Below, one piece after another: positions 71 through 24,890 of a stretch of DNA of 34,547 nucleotides. The stretch covers positions 1 through 34,547 of the forward strand of contig JAITBS010000343.1 of NCBI GenBank assembly GCA_031283515.1, in the 5' to 3' direction. This stretch comes from Planctomycetaceae bacterium. Its GTDB lineage: Bacteria; Planctomycetota; Planctomycetia; Pirellulales; Thermoguttaceae. The position numbers and the translations under genes are program-made. Positions within the stretch are counted from its first letter, which is position 1, and every line of letters starts with the position of its first letter. The notes under the pieces were generated by a model. That model had not been told where the DNA came from and made no database searches. It worked only from the letters and a program-made list of their open reading frames with translations.

Positions 71-176
71 TTAATAGTTGATAGTGAATAGTGAATAGTT
101 GCGCAAGCGGAGTACGACCAAAACGGTAATACTCCGCATTGCGAACTATCCACTGTCAACTATCCACTATCAATTA
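71..176. repeat. Hairpin repeat copy 1: 7-bp-repeat arms around a conserved core
   Basis: Left arm TTAATAG TTGATAG TGAATAG TGAATAG TTGCGCAAGCGGAGTA; right arm TACTCCGCATTGCGAACTATCCACTGTCAACTATCCACTATCAATTA. Confidence 0.8.
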
Positions 177-190
177 CTTTATGAGGTTGG

Positions 191-298
191 TTTTTAGTTG
201 AGAGTTGAGTGGAGAGTGTCGCAAGCGGATTACGACCAAAACGGTAATACTCCGCATTGCGAACTATTCACTATTCACTCATAACTATTCACTAAAAA
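191..298. repeat. Hairpin repeat copy 2 (adjacent to copy 1)
   Basis: TTTTTAGTTGAGAGTTGAGTGGAGAGTGTCGCAAGCGGATTA - CGACCAAAACGGTAA - TACTCCGCATTGCGAACTATTCACTATTCACTCATAACTATTCACTAAAAA. Confidence 0.8.
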
Positions 299-6659: not shown

Positions 6660-6825
6660 AATCTTTTTTACATCGTTAAATTTGTTAATCTTTTTTAATT
6701 ATTTTTAACCATTCGCATCAATTACCAAAAAATAAACCATTTGCCGTGATTCCGTAAAACTAATTATTCATTAACATTTTTATCAATATACAATTTATAC
6801 CTTATTTACCGGCAATGATCAAGTA

Positions 6826-6870
6826 ATACCGTTTTGGTAGTAATCCGCATTGCGGCACTCTCAACGATTA
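6826..6870 (-). repeat. Half copy (inverted) of the hairpin repeat seen at 71-298 and 9945-10072
   Basis: ATACCGTTTTGGTAGTAATCCGCATTGCGGCACTCTCAAC resembles the reverse complement of the 205-245 segment (loop plus left arm). Confidence 0.6.
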
Positions 6871-7665: not shown

Positions 7666-9951
7666 ATGCACAATGCCATGAATATTGTCGCGGAGCATGA
7701 ACATAATGAAATTCTTGCTGCATTGGTTGGGCAACCCAATTCCGGTAAATCAACTGTTTTCAATTATCTCACCGGTTTACATCAAACAGTTGCCAATTAT
7801 CCCGGAGTGACAGTAACAAAAAAGTCCGGGCATTATCACGATGGTAAGCGGCGTATCGAAGTTGTTGATCTTCCTGGTACGTACAGTTTGACCTCGTATT
7901 CTCAGGAAGAACGGGTTACGCGGGATTTTCTGTTGCTTGAACGCCCTGAAGTTGTTGTTATCGTTATTGATGCTTCCAATTTACGGCGTCATCTTTATTT
8001 TGTGTTTCAGCTGCTCGAACTTCAGATACCGCTGGTCATTTGCCTGAATATGATGGATATTGCACGGCGTCGCGGTTTTTCGATTGATATTCCGGTGTTG
8101 GAACAAACGCTTGGAGTTCCGGTGATTCCGGCGAATGGTCGTACCGGAGAAGGTCTCGAAGAACTGCGCCGGCAAATTAACACGGTTTCCGCAAAACATG
8201 ACCACGAATCACCAGTCACCTGGAAAATCAATTACGGCACTTTAGAACCGTTAATTGCAGAATTTGATGCCGCACTCTCACAAAAAGAACCACTCGTTCA
8301 GGATTTTCCGACCCGATGGCTTGCGATTAAACTCCTTGAAAATGACCGCGAAGCACGGCGAATTATTCAACATCACACTCATGACAAAGATTGGGAACCG
8401 TTGCTCGAATCGTGCATGAAAAAAGTTGAAGATTACGAAACGCAAAGCGGTGATTCTCCCCGTAAAACAATCGCCTCCAGCAGGAACATTTTGGCGGAAA
8501 CCATTGAAAAACAGACCATTCAACGAACTTCCATCCCACATCGTAATTCAGATACGCTTGACCAATTTCTTTGTCATCCATTTCTTGGTTTGCTGAGTGT
8601 TGCGGCAGTCATGTTTATAACATTTCAGTTGGCGTTTAATCTGGCGGATGGTTGGACATGGTTTCCATGGTTCAATGCGGCAGGAGTTTTTGAATGGAAT
8701 ACGCCGTTTGGAGCGGTTGAGTCACTTTTTTCGGTTTGGATTCCGGCATTGCTGGATTCTTGTTTTCATCTTCCCGAAGGCAATCTCCACTCTTTAATTT
8801 ATGACGGAATTATTGCAGGAGTTGGCGGTGTACTTACATTTGTTCCGACAATTTTTTTTATTTTCCTTTTTATTTCGATTTTGGAACAAAGCGGTTATAT
8901 TGCCAGGGTGGTTGTTGTGTTGGATCGGATCATGCGTTTTTTCGGATTGCATGGTCAAAGTATTTTACCGATGATTCTTGGCGGCGGCATTGTTGGCGGT
9001 TGTGCATTGCCGGCGGTCATGGCAACACGTTCGATGCGGGAACAACGGGAGCGAATATTGACTATTATGGTTGTTCCCCTTATGAATTGCGGAGCCAAAG
9101 TTCCGGTGTTTGCTTTACTGATTTCGGCGTTTTTCCTTGAGTATCAAGGATTGGTATTGGCGGCAATTATTCTGATTTCGTGGACGATGGCTTTGTTTGT
9201 TTCTTCAATTCTTGGTAAATTATTTATTGGTGGAGAACCTTCGCCTCTTGTGATGGAGCTTCCGACGTACCAAGTTCCTGATTTACGCGATATGTTGTTG
9301 ACGGCGGTACTGCAAAGTTGGTGGTTTGTTAAAAAGGCGGGGACGATTATTCTGGCGGTTAATGTTTTTCTTTGGGTGCTTATGTATTACCCGCGTCCCG
9401 ACAATCCCGACACCGATGCGGCGACCCAACTTGCAGGTTCTTACGCTGCCCGAATGGGACGTATATTTGAACCGGTAACACGATATGCCGGTTTTGATTG
9501 GCGTGACAATGTGGCACTTATTGGTGGTTTTGCGGCGAAGGAAGTTATTGTCAGTACGATGGCGACGATGTATGGAATTGAAGAAGAAGACGAAACCGAA
9601 GCCGAGAACAATCATCAAGAAAATAAGAACAACAAAGAAAATACTTTCCAAGAACCAAACGTGAAGAGAAAAGAATTAACGAAAGAGCTTGAAGAGATTG
9701 ATACGGAAAGCCTGGATATTCAAGGCAAACATCTTGCTGTTCGTTTGCGTGCGGAAAAGAATTGGACACCATTGAAGGCATTTGTTCTTCTTCTTTTTGT
9801 GATGATTTACAATCCTTGTTTTGCGACTTGTGCGGTGATATGGCGAGAGACGGGTCATATCAAATACATGCTTATGACAATGGCGTACACGAATGGTTTA
9901 GCATTTTTAATTGCGGTTGCGGTGTACCAAATTGCAAGAATATGTAGTTGA
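7666..9951 (+). CDS. feoB: Ferrous iron transport protein B (FeoB)
   Basis: GQPNSGKSTVFNYLTG, VVDLPGTYSLT, LNMMD; membrane part with GGGIVGGCALPAVMATRSMREQRERILTIMVVPLMNCGAKVPV. Confidence 0.97.
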   Translation: MHNAMNIVAEHEHNEILAALVGQPNSGKSTVFNYLTGLHQTVANYPGVTVTKKSGHYHDGKRRIEVVDLPGTYSLTSYSQEERVTRDFLLLERPEVVVIVIDASNLRRHLYFVFQLLELQIPLVICLNMMDIARRRGFSIDIPVLEQTLGVPVIPANGRTGEGLEELRRQINTVSAKHDHESPVTWKINYGTLEPLIAEFDAALSQKEPLVQDFPTRWLAIKLLENDREARRIIQHHTHDKDWEPLLESCMKKVEDYETQSGDSPRKTIASSRNILAETIEKQTIQRTSIPHRNSDTLDQFLCHPFLGLLSVAAVMFITFQLAFNLADGWTWFPWFNAAGVFEWNTPFGAVESLFSVWIPALLDSCFHLPEGNLHSLIYDGIIAGVGGVLTFVPTIFFIFLFISILEQSGYIARVVVVLDRIMRFFGLHGQSILPMILGGGIVGGCALPAVMATRSMREQRERILTIMVVPLMNCGAKVPVFALLISAFFLEYQGLVLAAIILISWTMALFVSSILGKLFIGGEPSPLVMELPTYQVPDLRDMLLTAVLQSWWFVKKAGTIILAVNVFLWVLMYYPRPDNPDTDAATQLAGSYAARMGRIFEPVTRYAGFDWRDNVALIGGFAAKEVIVSTMATMYGIEEEDETEAENNHQENKNNKENTFQEPNVKRKELTKELEEIDTESLDIQGKHLAVRLRAEKNWTPLKAFVLLLFVMIYNPCFATCAVIWRETGHIKYMLMTMAYTNGLAFLIAVAVYQIARICS

Positions 9952-10072
9952 TAGTGGAGAGTGGCGAGTGGAGAGTTCGCAAGCGGAGTATTACCAAAAC
10001 GTTTTGAATCCGCGTGCGAACTCTCCACTATCAACTCTCCACTATCAACTATCCACTCTCAACTAACCACTG
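9945..10072. repeat. Hairpin repeat copy 3, overlapping the feoB stop codon
   Basis: TAGTTGATAGTGGAGAGTGGCGAGTGGAGAGTTCGCAAGCGGAGTA...CGAACTCTCCACTATCAACTCTCCACTATCAACTATCCACTCTCAACTAACC. Confidence 0.8.
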
Positions 10073-10104: not shown

Positions 10105-10126
10105 AATAATTCCACTGATAGATTAC
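10105..10126 (+). repeat. 22-bp dispersed repeat, copy 2
   Basis: AATAATTCCACTGATAGATTAC. Confidence 0.8.
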
Positions 10127-10859: not shown

Positions 10860-12159
10860 ATGAAGAATATATTTACGTTAAAATGGGCAAGGGGGGGGGG
10901 TATGCGCAAGAAGTAAGCGTTTTGACAAGACACTTCCGAACCGTAAGACGATTCGGCGAGCATTTACTCTTGTCGAACTTTTAGTGGTTATTGCGATTAT
11001 TGGAGTTTTAATCGCTCTTCTACTTCCAGCCGTTCAAGCCGCCCGAGAGGCAGCCCGGCGTTCTCAGTGTATTAACAAGTTAAAACAACTTGCTCTTGCC
11101 ACACACAACTTTCACAGTACCTACAACCGTTTACCAGCTTCCGGTAATGATCCGAACTGGACAAAAATTAAACCGGCTTCCGGCGGTGCCTCTGTTGAGG
11201 CAACATCGTTGGTGCGAGTCCACTATGTCGATGTGTACAATCCCATCGTAACAATGTTACCGTTGCTTGAGCAGCCAGCAATGTTCGATACGTTAATGAC
11301 TGCCGCAAAATACGGAGCACAAACGGACGGTAACAACCGAAGTTACATTCCATGCACTTGGATTGATACAACGGCAACCGGAACCGGAACCGATCAATAT
11401 GTCGATTCTTCAGGAAATTCCGTTAATTCACCGCTCCGTGACCGTTTGGCTTTAACTCTTTGTCCCTCTGATCCTTTGTCCAATACTGCAACATTGGGTC
11501 GTCCTTACGGTAATTACCGTTATTGCCGCGGCGATATTTGGTGCAATTGGCAATGGCGTGAATCACGAGGGGCATTCGGACCGGGGAATCGTTTTCCGGT
11601 TTCATTCAGTAGTATTACTGACGGAACCAGCAATACCATCTTTTTTTCCGAATCATGTGTTGGTGCGGACGATGACCGAACGAATCGTGCCGGTCTTGTT
11701 ACGGGAATCAATTATCCTACGGACAAACCAAGTAAAGTTGCGGCTTATCGTGGAGTTGGGGCAGATCTGGCTGATGCCGCTCCGACTGTCGCCGGTAGTG
11801 ATCAACGAGGAAGCCGTTGGGCGGACGCTCGACTGGCTTTTTCCGGATTCAATACCGTTTTGCCTCCGAACTCTCCATCCGGTCTCTTTGATGATCCCAA
11901 TAGTGCCGGCGGAGCGGCTTATGGTAATTATGCAACTGTAAGTAGTTTCCATCCTGGGGGCGTTATTGTTGCACTGGGAGACGGAGCTGCACGGTTTGTT
12001 TCGGAAACGATTGATTGCGGTGATCTGACCAAACATCCCGGCGAAGGTGATCCGGCGTATGTTGCCACTGATCCGCATCAATGGATTGGTCCGACTCAAT
12101 ACGGCATCTGGGGAGCCGCAGGCTCTATTAGCGGACGCGAATCAAAATCGCTGCCGTAA
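10860..12159 (+). CDS. DUF1559 / type II secretion pseudopilin-like protein, copy 1; frame interrupted at a G10 tract (ORF track begins at a GTG inside the prepilin motif, 10984)
   Basis: [36 protein letters not shown] at 10963 onward; ATG with upstream GGAG at 10860 is out of frame by the G10 tract; C-terminal [22 protein letters not shown]. Confidence 0.8.
10891..10900 (+). repeat. G10 homopolymer tract in the 5' coding region of a DUF1559 gene
   Basis: GGGCAA-GGGGGGGGGG-TATGCG; the only G run of this length noticed in the window. Confidence 0.95.
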
Positions 12160-12259
12160 TATTTTCGCAACCAAAAACCGGAAGGATCATCCCACAACTT
12201 CCGGTAATGTGTTTCTCTATTTTTTGTACTTAAAACTACCTATTTGAAGGAGGTGTTCA

Positions 12260-13480
12260 ATGAAAAGATTTTTTTGTTATTTGAAAACGAATGGATTTAC
12301 CTTAGTGGAACTTCTGGTTGTTATTGCGATTATCGGAGTATTGATTGCTCTGCTTCTTCCGGCAGTTCAGGCGGCGCGAGAGGCGGCAAGACGTTCACAA
12401 TGTACCAACAATCTCAAACAACTGGGAATTACGTTTCACAATTTCCACAACACGTTTGATCGGATTCCAAACAATGGATATGATCCGACGTGGACAGGTA
12501 TCGGCAGAGCCGGTTCGACCACATCGCCTAAACGACCGGTAGAACATGCTCAAGAATATAATTTTATCGTAACATTGCTCCCGTTCTTCGAACAGCAGGC
12601 GATGTACGATGTGATTTATAGTGGAGCAATAGCATGTTCTACAGGAACAAGCTATCCGAGTAGCCCCCAAGCTCCCGGTTTCTTTGTTGGTGTTGGAAAC
12701 AGCGGAAGGTATTCCGACAACACCACATCGCCTTGCGGAGAGCAAATTGCCGTGATTTGCTGTCCTTCCGACAGGAATGCCGCTAAGGGAGCGCAAGAGA
12801 CCTCTGAAGCCCGAACCAGTTACCATGCTAATATGGGTGATTGGATGATCGGTTGGAATTGGGGTGAATATGCTACTCCACGCGGTGTATTTCGTCCCGG
12901 TACCTTTGCCAGTGGAACCGGTATTGATCCGGGAAGAGGTGGTACGGATTCATTCAGTTCTATTACGGATGGATTGAGCAATACACTCTTGTTTGCGGAA
13001 GCTTGTGTTTCCGGATCGAGTGATATTACTGTTTTAGGAACTATTGCATCGAAAACATCTTCACTCCATGGCGGAGCTGCATCAAATTGTGCAGGAAGAC
13101 GCGGAACTCAAGGGATGATTACCAATACGAATGATAAACAACCTCGCAAAGGACGGCGTTGGATGGATGCTCGTATTCCCTATTCCGGCTTCAACGCTGC
13201 TCTTCCGCCTAATCAGCCCGCTTGTGTCGGTAATGGCGATGGAGAAACGGATTGCCATGCTTTAACGGTAAGTAGTTATCATTCCGGCGGTGCAAATGCG
13301 GCACTGTGTGACGGCAGTGTTCGTTTTATTTCCGAAACAATTGACTGCGGTAATATTACCAAAAAATTAGGCGAAGAACTCGGTAATACCGGTGAAGGTC
13401 ATAAATGGACGGGACCTTCCACTGTCGGTGTTTGGGGAGCGGCAGCAACTCCTGCTCACGGCGAACCAAAATCACTTTAA
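12260..13480 (+). CDS. DUF1559 / prepilin-like protein, copy 2
   Basis: [48 protein letters not shown]; strong SD AAGGAGGTG; C-terminal [25 protein letters not shown]. Confidence 0.93.
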
Positions 13481-13525
13481 TTTTGAAACAATTTGTTACT
13501 GTTCGTACTAATTAATGAGAATAAA

Positions 13526-13539
13526 TGTAAACGTTTACA
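13526..13539. promoter_or_regulatory. LacI-family operator-like palindrome 1
   Basis: TGTAAACGTTTACA, perfect 14-bp palindrome with central CG; fits the TGWNANCGNTNWCA pattern. Confidence 0.6.
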
Positions 13540-13579
13540 CCAATAAACAGAATCATATCTTGCTTGAGATGTTAATTTG

Positions 13580-13593
13580 TGTGAACGGTTACA
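13580..13593. promoter_or_regulatory. LacI-family operator-like site 2
   Basis: TGTGAACGGTTACA; same pattern, 54 bp downstream of site 1, 60 bp upstream of the copy 3 ATG. Confidence 0.55.
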
Positions 13594-13653
13594 TTTGTAG
13601 TACATCTATTTTTATAACACTTTACTTAACAATATTTATGAAAGGAGATTTTC

Positions 13654-14865
13654 ATGAATGATTCTTTTTCCCCGAAAAGAATAGGTTTTACCTTAGTAGA
13701 ACTTCTTGTGGTTATTGCGATTATTGGTGTTTTGATTGCACTTCTTTTGCCGGCAATTCAAGCGGCACGGGAAGCGGCACGACGGGCACAGTGTACCAAT
13801 AACCTCAAACAACTGGGAATTGCGTTTCACAATTTCCATGACACCTACAAACGGATGCCGAGTAACGGATATGATTCCATGTGGGTGGCGTACAAAAAAT
13901 ATGGTACCCAGGATCGACTCGATATAGTCGATGTTTACAGTGTTTGGGTTTGCCTGCTTCCATTTTACGAAATGACAGCAGTCTTCGATGAAATCAAGTC
14001 GGGTTGTGCCAATCTTGCAACGGTCAATCCGTATCCGACGGATGATTCCCGATACGAAAAAGGACGCTTGGTTCGAACCGGAAATTGGGATTACACAAGC
14101 GGCGGCGGTGCTTCACCTGCTAGTTTGAATATAACCTCTCTTTTGTGTCCTTCGGATTCTTCTGCCTTGTTAGCAGAAGGAGCCCAAGCAACAGGACGTA
14201 CCAATTATCGAGCCAATATGGGTGATTGGATGATCGGTTGGGCATGGGGCGAATACGCCAATCCGCGAGGAACATTCCGACCAAGTTGGAATGACAACGG
14301 TTCAATCAAATGGTCAGACCGTTCTTTCAATGCCATTACCGATGGTTTGAGTAACACATTGTACGCTTCCGAAGCCTGTGTGTCCAAAGGAACCGATAAC
14401 GATATTACCATTCTTGGCGGAGTTGCCTATGAACCGAGTGGAAATTTTATTCATGGGAATGCTGCCTCACTTTGTGCTGCCAAACGCGGTTTACAAGGAC
14501 TTTTAAATCCGACCAATCAGGCAACCACTCCGCATAAAGGACATCGTTGGATGGATGCACGAATCCCTTATACCGGCTTCAACGCCGCTTTGCCGCCTAA
14601 TCAACCCGCTTGCCGAAGAGAAAGCGATGATAAAAAATGTTACGCATTGACGGTGAGCAGTTATCATGCCGGCGGAGCAAACGCCGCACTTTGTGACGGA
14701 GCGGTTCGGTTCATTTCGGAAACCATTGATTGCGGTAATATTACCAAAAAATTAGGAGAAGAACTCGGTAATACCGGTGACGGTCATAAATGGACAGGAC
14801 CATCCACTGTCGGTGTTTGGGGTGCTGCTGCAACTCCCGCTCACAATGAATCAAACTCCTTGTAG
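13654..14865 (+). CDS. DUF1559 / prepilin-like protein, copy 3
   Basis: [48 protein letters not shown]-terminus nearly identical to copy 2. Confidence 0.93.
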
Positions 14866-14903: not shown

Positions 14904-15006
14904 TTTTTGAGAATACGAACTCTGCGAAAAAACAAAACAAACGAACAATGTTTAAATCAAAATTTTCGTTTGTTTTGTTATTTTGTTTGTTTTGTATTCT
15001 CAAAAA
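14904..15006. repeat. Inverted repeat downstream of the DUF1559 cluster (possible terminator/hairpin)
   Basis: TTTTTGAGAATAC...AAAACAAAACAAACGAAC (14904-14946) versus reverse complement of TTTCGTTTGTTTTGTTATTTTGTTTGTTTTGTATTCTCAAAAA (14964-15006); 43-bp arms, imperfect. Confidence 0.65.
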
Positions 15007-15010
15007 TAAA

Positions 15011-15039
15011 TCTGCGAAAATCGGCGTCATTTGCGGATT
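15011..15039 (+). repeat. 29-bp inverted repeat, left of the nuclease gene
   Basis: TCTGCGAAAATCGGCGTCATTTGCGGATT; inverted partner at 15857-15885. Confidence 0.7.
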
Positions 15040-16305: not shown

Positions 16306-17784
16306 TTGAAAGAGTTTCCAAATTATTTTGCGCTAATTAGATTAGGTAATGAAATGCGAACTGTCTCCTGGCTGTTTCTTATTTTATCCTTTGCCTTGGG
16401 GATTGGTTGTGCCTTTATTGTTCGGTATTACGTATTCGAGGCGAAATCTGTTCCTATTACGGAACAGAAGCCGAGTATTAAAATTCTTGTCGCCAAACAA
16501 GCAATTCCGCAAGGAGCCGAAATAACCGCAGAAGTGCTCACATTTGTCGAAGTTCCCATCACAGAACTCCCCACTGCAGCAATCACTAGTTTTGATAAGG
16601 TTTATCATCGCCGTTCTGCCTATCCTATTTCAGTGGGATGCCCGATTTGCGAAGACTTGCTGGCACCGTATCAGGAAAAAGATTGGGCAACAGAAAGGTT
16701 TATTCCCGCCGGAATGCAAATCGTTTCGTTGGAAATCGAGCAAGTTCTTTTGAACGGCAATGCCGTTGAACCCTCAATCCTGTTGACGAATAATCTTTCT
16801 CCCGATCAACGAATTGATATTCGATTGTTTCCCAAAGAACCCTCACAAGGGGAACTCATAGAACGAAAAAATCAATTGCTCAAAACGTTTTTGCCAAAAA
16901 ACGAAATTGCGGAACAGGGGGAACTGCTTCTTGAAAACATTGAGATTCTTCAGATTCAAAATCAATTATCTTTCAACCAAAAACGACGGCAAATTCCAAC
17001 ATTGACCTTAGTTCTGGAAAAAGAATATGCCGCTCACCTAATCGCCGCCGCCCGAAAAGGACGACTTCGTGTTGTACCGCATCGCCAAGCCAATTCAACC
17101 GAAACATCCTTTGTCCTAAATAACAAAACAGAAAATTCCACAAAGACCGTTCTTGACGAAATAAAGACCACTACAACAAACAACACCAATACAACTGATA
17201 ACAGTAATAAAACAGAAATATCAGAACCCCTAATCAACAATAATACACCAGATAATGTAGTAACTGAAACTATTGAGAACACTGCGGAGAATACAACAGA
17301 GAACACAACTGAGAACACAAACGAGATCACAAAGGATGTTTCTTTAACTGTATCCGCATCTCTTGCTTCGACCTTACCGGCAACTCCACCGGAAATAACT
17401 CAACTCGTTCCGAAAACACCGCAAAAAGAACGTTTTTCGTTATTGTTTGTGCCTCCTGAAACTTCCGGTGTGGAAACAATTGAAAAAAATCGTAGCGATA
17501 TTCAACCTATTGCGGCGGCACCATTACCGGGTTTTTATCGGGAAAAAACGCGAGTCTTCGAACCGGAGATTCATTCGCCTACGGAGGAGAACGCTTCACA
17601 TTTGCCGCATGTTATTGAGATTGGGTTGCCTGCCGCCAACAAAATATTGGAAAAACACGCTCCCAAAAATTACTCCCCTTGGGGAAAATCTTCCATCGTT
17701 ATCGAACCGAAACCGGAAATAAAAAATGAAGAGGATTCCAATACTCTTATGCAACCATTATTGCGAAACCGAAAAAAAATGTAA
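16306..17784 (+). CDS. CpaB-like / SAF-domain protein; likely ATG start at 16354
   Basis: TM followed by IKILVAKQAIPQGAEITAEVLTFVEVPITELPTAAI...YHRRSAYPISVGCPICEDLL; Thr/Asn/Glu-rich linker near 17160-17335. Confidence 0.7.
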   Translation: MKEFPNYFALIRLGNEMRTVSWLFLILSFALGIGCAFIVRYYVFEAKSVPITEQKPSIKILVAKQAIPQGAEITAEVLTFVEVPITELPTAAITSFDKVYHRRSAYPISVGCPICEDLLAPYQEKDWATERFIPAGMQIVSLEIEQVLLNGNAVEPSILLTNNLSPDQRIDIRLFPKEPSQGELIERKNQLLKTFLPKNEIAEQGELLLENIEILQIQNQLSFNQKRRQIPTLTLVLEKEYAAHLIAAARKGRLRVVPHRQANSTETSFVLNNKTENSTKTVLDEIKTTTTNNTNTTDNSNKTEISEPLINNNTPDNVVTETIENTAENTTENTTENTNEITKDVSLTVSASLASTLPATPPEITQLVPKTPQKERFSLLFVPPETSGVETIEKNRSDIQPIAAAPLPGFYREKTRVFEPEIHSPTEENASHLPHVIEIGLPAANKILEKHAPKNYSPWGKSSIVIEPKPEIKNEEDSNTLMQPLLRNRKKM

Positions 17785-18564: not shown

Positions 18565-18701
18565 GTCCGCAGATTTTCGCAGATTCTTTTAAAAAGTTTA
18601 TTGAATAGAATCCCGTCGGTTCTCTTCCGGCTGTTTTGTTATTTTTTCTGTTTCGTCATTCTCAAAAAAATAATCTCCAAAAATCTGCGTAATCTGCGGA
18701 C
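18565..18701. repeat. About 137-bp intergenic element with inverted termini
   Basis: GTCCGCAGATTTTCGCAGATT (from 18565) versus AATCTGCGTAATCTGCGGAC (to 18701), one bulge. Confidence 0.7.
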
Positions 18702-24408: not shown

Positions 24409-24502
24409 TTGTCCGTAAATTACGCAGAATTTTAAAATTATTGTAATCTGTCAGCGGCATAATTTTTAGAATACGTCATTTGTCAAAATCGTCCTTAACA
24501 AA

Positions 24503-24694
24503 ACCTCATTTTCACCTAATTTTTCCGAACAATTGTTTAAAAGACCTCAGTAGTAACAAGTTAAGAACACAACGACCTCATTACCTCATTCACATAGAAA
24601 ACAATGAGGTAATAAGGTAATGAGGTTGACATGTGGGGAAACAATTGGCTACTGAGGTTGTTTTGTTAGGAAAATTAGGTTGAAAAATGAGGTT
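24503..24694. repeat. About 190-bp compound imperfect palindrome between convergent genes
   Basis: Outer arms AACCTCATTTTCACCTAATTTTTCC / GGAAAATTAGGTTGAAAAATGAGGTT; core ACCTCATTACCTCATT (24575-24590) / AATGAGGTAATAAGGTAATGAGGT (24603-24626). Confidence 0.8.
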
Positions 24695-24731
24695 CATTGT
24701 TTATTACTTTGATCATTCATAATTACAAAAT

Positions 24732-24753
24732 AATAATTCCACTGATAGATTAC
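24732..24753 (+). repeat. 22-bp dispersed repeat, copy 3
   Basis: AATAATTCCACTGATAGATTAC. Confidence 0.8.
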
Positions 24754-24890
24754 AAGGATTTTTATTTAATTTCAATAAACGTTTTGAAAAATCTGCGTAA
24801 TCTGCGGATTCCGTTAATAAAATAGAATGTTACAATAAAAATCCGTTTGTTCCGGCTGAAAATCCAAGCGAAAGGCGAAAACGTATCCGG

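Follow-up and report, generated by a model that had tools for sequence, protein, structure and literature searches.

Heptamer-armed palindromes in a Planctomycetaceae genome: a REP/MITE-like repeat often found inside IS66-type MITEs

Two adjacent hairpins at the start of a Planctomycetaceae contig are members of a dispersed palindromic repeat family of MITE-like or REP-like type, whose copies are short and contain no genes. A preliminary description of this DNA had suggested a mobile hairpin of this kind, and the suggestion is supported by a high and patchy copy number, by lineage-specific sites and by the many copies found inside MITEs with terminal inverted repeats and 8-bp duplications; a TnpA_REP/Y1 transposase and a transcript-end structure of the intrinsic-terminator kind were not supported. 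Our best reading is that of a REP-like, non-autonomous palindrome hitchhiking in IS66 MITEs in its own species. For the pair itself, we consider it fairly probable that it represents two copies of a non-coding, non-autonomous interspersed palindrome that is dispersed both by riding in MITEs and by a route of its own.

Hairpin elements in the window

The window, that is, the whole stretch of 34,547 nucleotides analysed here (G000:C337:1-34547), comes from contig 337 of a fragmented, 86%-complete genome of 5.03 Mb in 686 contigs. The two adjacent hairpins of 7-bp repeats around a conserved core were confirmed at positions 69-176 (element A) and 196-294 (element B). Both are read on the forward strand, as is a third full copy, element C, at 9946-10072. 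Element A comprises a left heptamer arm (69-99; AGTTAAT AGTTGAT AGTGAAT AGTGAAT AGT), a core forming an imperfect stem-loop with a bulged A at its right end (102-143) and a right heptamer arm (145-176). It is joined to element B by a forward-strand linker, CTTTATGAGGTTGGTTTTT (177-195), which is a shortened version of a longer linker found elsewhere in the genome. Element B has a left arm in which one unit is 2 nt short (196-217), a core (220-261) and a right arm (263-294).

Because the window begins at a contig end, the left side of the A/B structure is cut off: an outer palindromic module of the CGCCATTTTCATGTGAAAATGGCG type (1-68) is clipped by the contig start. To the right, a terminal inverted repeat of the MITE around A and B, ATTCCACAGATAGATTAC, lies on the reverse strand at 346-363; its left counterpart is absent, having been lost at the contig edge. 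Element C consists of a left arm (9946-9976), a core of the CAAAACGTTTTG loop class with an A.G mismatch at its right end (9978-10018) and a right arm of 7 units (10020-10072), followed by the same terminal repeat on the reverse strand at 10109-10126. A decayed half element, with one core half and a degenerate arm, is present on the reverse strand at about 6822-6870.

Copy number and site occupancy

The genome-wide core search proposed in the preliminary description returned 134 forward and 144 reverse matches, compared with 0 for a reversed-pattern control; since near-palindromic copies can match on both strands, we state the genome total as at least 144 cores. A covariance model, likewise proposed, gave at least 150 matches in the same genome at E <= 1.1e-11. 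Cores crowd at contig ends (33 of 67 sampled cores within 400 bp of an end versus 6.8 expected, or ~5x): assembly breaks at these repeats, and the first bases of the window lie within one. Such nested repeats can help to explain why these Planctomycetes genomes are assembled in hundreds of contigs. From their isolate codes, we take the Planctomycetaceae metagenome-assembled genomes matched by the heptamer-palindrome pattern to be of termite-gut origin.

The family defined by the own-species core is patchy, reaching high numbers in 9 of 21 genus members, and 39 genomes from other genera yielded no copy. The strict core pattern had no match in GTDB genomes, a set that may leave out the genome studied here, and the heptamer strings were not found in the literature searched. 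Occupied and empty sites were compared with relatives G018, G011 and G016 at ten loci, which were picked because the element abuts a gene and so give no estimate of rate. The hairpin was absent from the compared relatives at five of them (L180, L181, L187, L188 and L212). At the L016 and L006 sites it was shared but decayed, and at L178 an independent copy lay nearby. Occupancy of the feoB site of element C was also lineage specific against the compared relatives.

Anatomy and folding of the hairpin

Each element is an oriented, imperfect palindrome of ~105 bp in which heptamer arms surround a core of 41-43 nt, in the order outer module, arm, 1-3-nt junction, core, junction, arm and outer module. 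The arm heptamer is AGTKRAK, i.e. AGT[TG][AG]A[TG], and the core of elements A and B is CGCAAGCGGANTACGACCAAAACGGTAATACTCCGCATTGCG. The two ends of the core stem differ: one usually reads CGCAAGCGG, mostly preceded by GT, GC or TG, and the other is T followed by CGCAATGCGG or CGCACGCGG, so that a bulge or A.G mismatch is usually left at one stem end. Matching junctions were rarer than expected (14 versus 24.6, p 0.004), which is what two different core ends would give. Arm length ranges from 2 to 14 units across copies and would change through gain or loss of units. Many different pairings of core halves and flanking modules are seen, and linkage between core halves is significant. In the preferred reading the repeat is a polar hairpin of AGTKRAK arms around a species-specific core.

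The A/B region folds far better than shuffled sequences (RNA z -12.5), as does element A folded as DNA (z -8.2). The right arm, described previously as complementary heptamers, does consist of complementary-type units, but these are not exact complements of the facing arm: left and right inner heptamers pair at 5.785 of 7 positions compared with 5.779 in randomly re-paired arms (p 0.49). No mutual information was found at the variable facing core position, and a multi-species core alignment (21 sequences) contained 2 pairs with double changes versus 2.3 in shuffles. On these three results, the stable fold is not demonstrably kept by compensatory change. The preliminary description had named few copies without structural covariation as the refuting outcome, and one half of this was observed: with hundreds of matches the copies are not few, but their structure does not covary. 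No Rfam match reached the gathering score in the window.

Nesting of further palindromes in the flanks was little above that of re-paired flanks in the own genome and in excess in sister species (22 of 122 versus 4.6), although a few of these cases lie near contig ends and may be fold-backs of the assembly. Other species also have long, nearly perfect palindromes that surround hairpins not far from a contig end (L054 1-150, L080 5700-5850 and L107 3350-3500), possibly fold-backs as well.

Many copies lie within IS66-type MITEs

Around many hairpin copies we found a terminal repeat in inverted orientation, GTAATATATCAGTGGAAT (hereafter T). About 1,060 copies of T are present in the 5 Mb of the own genome (control 0), and the nesting of one repeat family in these units is on a large scale. 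Conservation starts sharply at GTAA over 131 T copies. T..T units span 58-425 bp, and the MITEs that hold the hairpin 90-430 bp. When lengths from 3 to 12 bp were tested, target duplications were in excess at 8 bp only; this excess was clear in other species (z 4.6) and smaller in the own genome (z 2.0). T or T-like ends were also found on PF03050 (IS66) transposase genes in G014 (L296 and L289), G018 (L294 and L284) and the own genome (L281), and a 600-bp IS66 deletion derivative in G019 (L290) carries T or a close variant at both ends. IS66 elements have 20-30-bp ends starting GTAAGCG and make 8-bp duplications (PMC11946415). Based on the GTAA start, the 8-bp duplication and the ends shared with IS66 transposase genes, the T units are IS66-type MITEs. 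They resemble known IS66-derived MITEs in these respects and in having no gene inside, but their terminal repeat differs from the classic GTAAGCG after GTAA, the heptamer hairpin occupies the centre of an interior pieced together from palindromic modules, and this hairpin also occurs without IS66 ends.

One route of dispersal is a ride of the hairpin inside IS66-ended MITEs with 8-bp duplications, and an IS66-family transposase could move these MITEs in trans. The own genome, at 86% completeness, yielded only three C-terminal fragments of an IS66 transposase and no intact gene, whereas relative G018 has a longer IS66 transposase frame; the mover of T units in the own genome may be extinct or may lie within the missing ~14%. 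At the loci examined, no autonomous copy was recognised, either between the two halves of a hairpin or in the 0.7-4 kb that separate pairs of T ends.

These observations raise an alternative that we regard as unlikely: the hairpin could be a mere inner part of IS66-derived MITEs, captured once and spread solely by IS66, with T-less copies being eroded or truncated MITEs. At least one T lies within 350 bp of 66 of 90 own-genome elements (on both sides of 22), and among 15 T..T units with a duplication identity of at least 7/8, 11 contain the hairpin. The other 4 units lack it, as does a 311-bp T..T unit with linker modules inside at 24443-24753 of the window, and for 14 of the 90 elements neither flank contains a T within 350 bp. 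Against an IS66-only history are the copies that abut genes, which begin exactly at the arm, and 30 hairpins of other phyla, around which T was never found (0/30).

Hairpin and T abundance are uncorrelated among carriers

The copy numbers of the two families argue further against that alternative. Over 21 genus members, T and hairpin counts are correlated (rho 0.64), owing only to species that lack both families; among the 14 species with either family they are uncorrelated (rho -0.12). In three species many hairpins coexist with few T copies: G011 (at least 150 hairpins versus 20 T), G013 (114 versus 36) and G016 (143 versus 66). Conversely, G020, G004 and G006 have hundreds of IS66-type terminal repeats and almost no hairpins of the own-species core, as counted with model R1; since this model favours the core of the own species, any hairpin count outside that species is a minimum.

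Returning to the preferred reading of a palindrome with two routes of dispersal, we infer the second route, in which the hairpin would also move or be copied by itself, from its abundance in MITE-poor species, the lack of IS66 ends in other phyla and its solitary occurrence at gene ends. Its own arm-end boundaries show no excess of direct repeats indicative of a target duplication, and no transposase was found to be tied to it. A cognate TnpA_REP/Y1 (RAYT) transposase, as suggested previously, was rejected: PF01797 was undetected in the own genome (G000) and in the element-rich G007 and G013, is present in element-poor species and has no link to element abundance.

Gene ends, stop codons and other phyla

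In the own genome, hairpins lie nearer to gene 3' ends than to 5' ends (median 105 versus 231 bp), and 8 of 69 facing genes stop inside an arm, a lower fraction than in other phyla (below); reading frames were called by simple rules throughout. In the window, the first heptamer of element C supplies the TGA stop of feoB (9949-9951), whose product ends ...YQIARICS* where those of relatives end ...YQVVSFLTG*. Because 7 is coprime to 3, inward arms carry TAG, TGA or TAA in all three frames; this was so for 88% of arms in the own genome and 97% in other phyla, compared with 2% read outward and 17-25% of shuffled arms. Within 21 nt, a period-7 array with stop codons thus shuts every frame, which offers a concrete explanation of how heptamer repeats, long recorded between bacterial genes, could be tolerated.

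Hairpins with the arm pattern and other cores were retrieved from Bacillota, Bacteroidota, Acidobacteriota, Chloroflexota, Pseudomonadota, Campylobacterota, Elusimicrobiota, Cyanobacteriota and other Planctomycetota, as assigned from record titles. The search pattern fixed the heptamer, so its shared sequence across phyla is not independent evidence. In this set, the stop codon falls within a heptamer arm for 24 of the 43 genes that face a hairpin. Most of the genes tested are full length: among 14 proteins scanned, 11 reach the end of their family profile or come within a few residues of it (including argH, clpP, feoB, ribBA, ddl, ligA and a potA-like ATPase), one, a 16S methyltransferase, is truncated and two had no usable test. 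Equal-composition controls, run on viral contigs only, gave a weak contrast (3 matches versus 0, 2, 0 and 0); the three viral contigs with the pattern are L311, L312 and L313.

Insertion at a gene end, as in the feoB case, swaps in the stop codon of the arm and would probably do little harm, so that a palindrome with period-7 stop arms could insert there cheaply; such insertions may persist owing to the stop codon that the arm provides. More speculatively, and in our view doubtfully, heptamer-armed hairpins of at least nine phyla could form one widespread mobile family moved by an as-yet-undescribed enzyme that prefers gene stops and palindrome tips, with the 7-bp period kept to give stops in all frames and in any orientation.

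It is distinctly improbable that the hairpin is instead retained because its RNA or DNA structure serves the host at gene ends, as terminator, mRNA 3'-end protection or insulator. Its very stable fold, its bias toward 3' ends and its position on stop codons in other phyla would suit such a role, but neither core nor arms covary, presence is patchy with lineage-specific sites, convergent gene pairs are not clearly enriched and a scan for intrinsic terminators, one form of the transcript-end structure suggested earlier, found none. Least probable of all is a passive heptamer satellite, as in cyanobacterial heptanucleotide repeats, with slippage and recombination among copies building and shuffling the arms in place of transposition: it would account for the variable arms and the many module combinations, but not for a fixed core and polarity at hundreds of unlinked sites, the significant linkage of core halves or nesting in duplication-flanked MITEs.

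Comparison with known repeats

Like GTAG REPs and REPINs with RAYT, the present elements are interspersed palindromes found downstream of genes in several phyla and supply stops; the ends of GTAG REPs often provide a TAG (PMC3733652). They differ in being ~105 bp with heptamer arms rather than palindromes of 20-40 bp, and in the lack of a detected RAYT/Y1 gene in the own and two other element-rich species. As to the GTAG tag at the foot of such REPs, some arms here start GTAGTTGA and others TTAGTTAA. Cyanobacterial heptanucleotide STRRs and the TAACTGA repeats of Beggiatoaceae are likewise intergenic 7-bp units containing stop codons, the latter mostly upstream of start codons (PMC4679880). 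However, those repeats are direct and of different heptamer sequence, whereas here, at the 3' ends of genes, inverted heptamer arms flank a conserved core on both sides.

Among other intergenic repeats, the NIME-type repeats of Neisseria are combinatorial mosaics of short modules between genes and in this resemble the present elements. The modules, ends and heptamer arms reported here are not known to be related to them.

Other repeats in the window

A second degenerate intergenic repeat, of the AATCTGCGAAAATCTGCGTAATCTGCGGA type, occurs at 2025-2112 (in tandem), 15004-15037, 18667-18700 and 24775-24808. Three tandem DUF1559 (N-methylated pseudopilin-like) paralogues occupy 10984-14865, with neighbours identical up to 86% over stretches. 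Lastly, 12-bp tandem repeats at 17275-17332 lie within a 492-aa open reading frame (16306-17784) that has no Pfam match.
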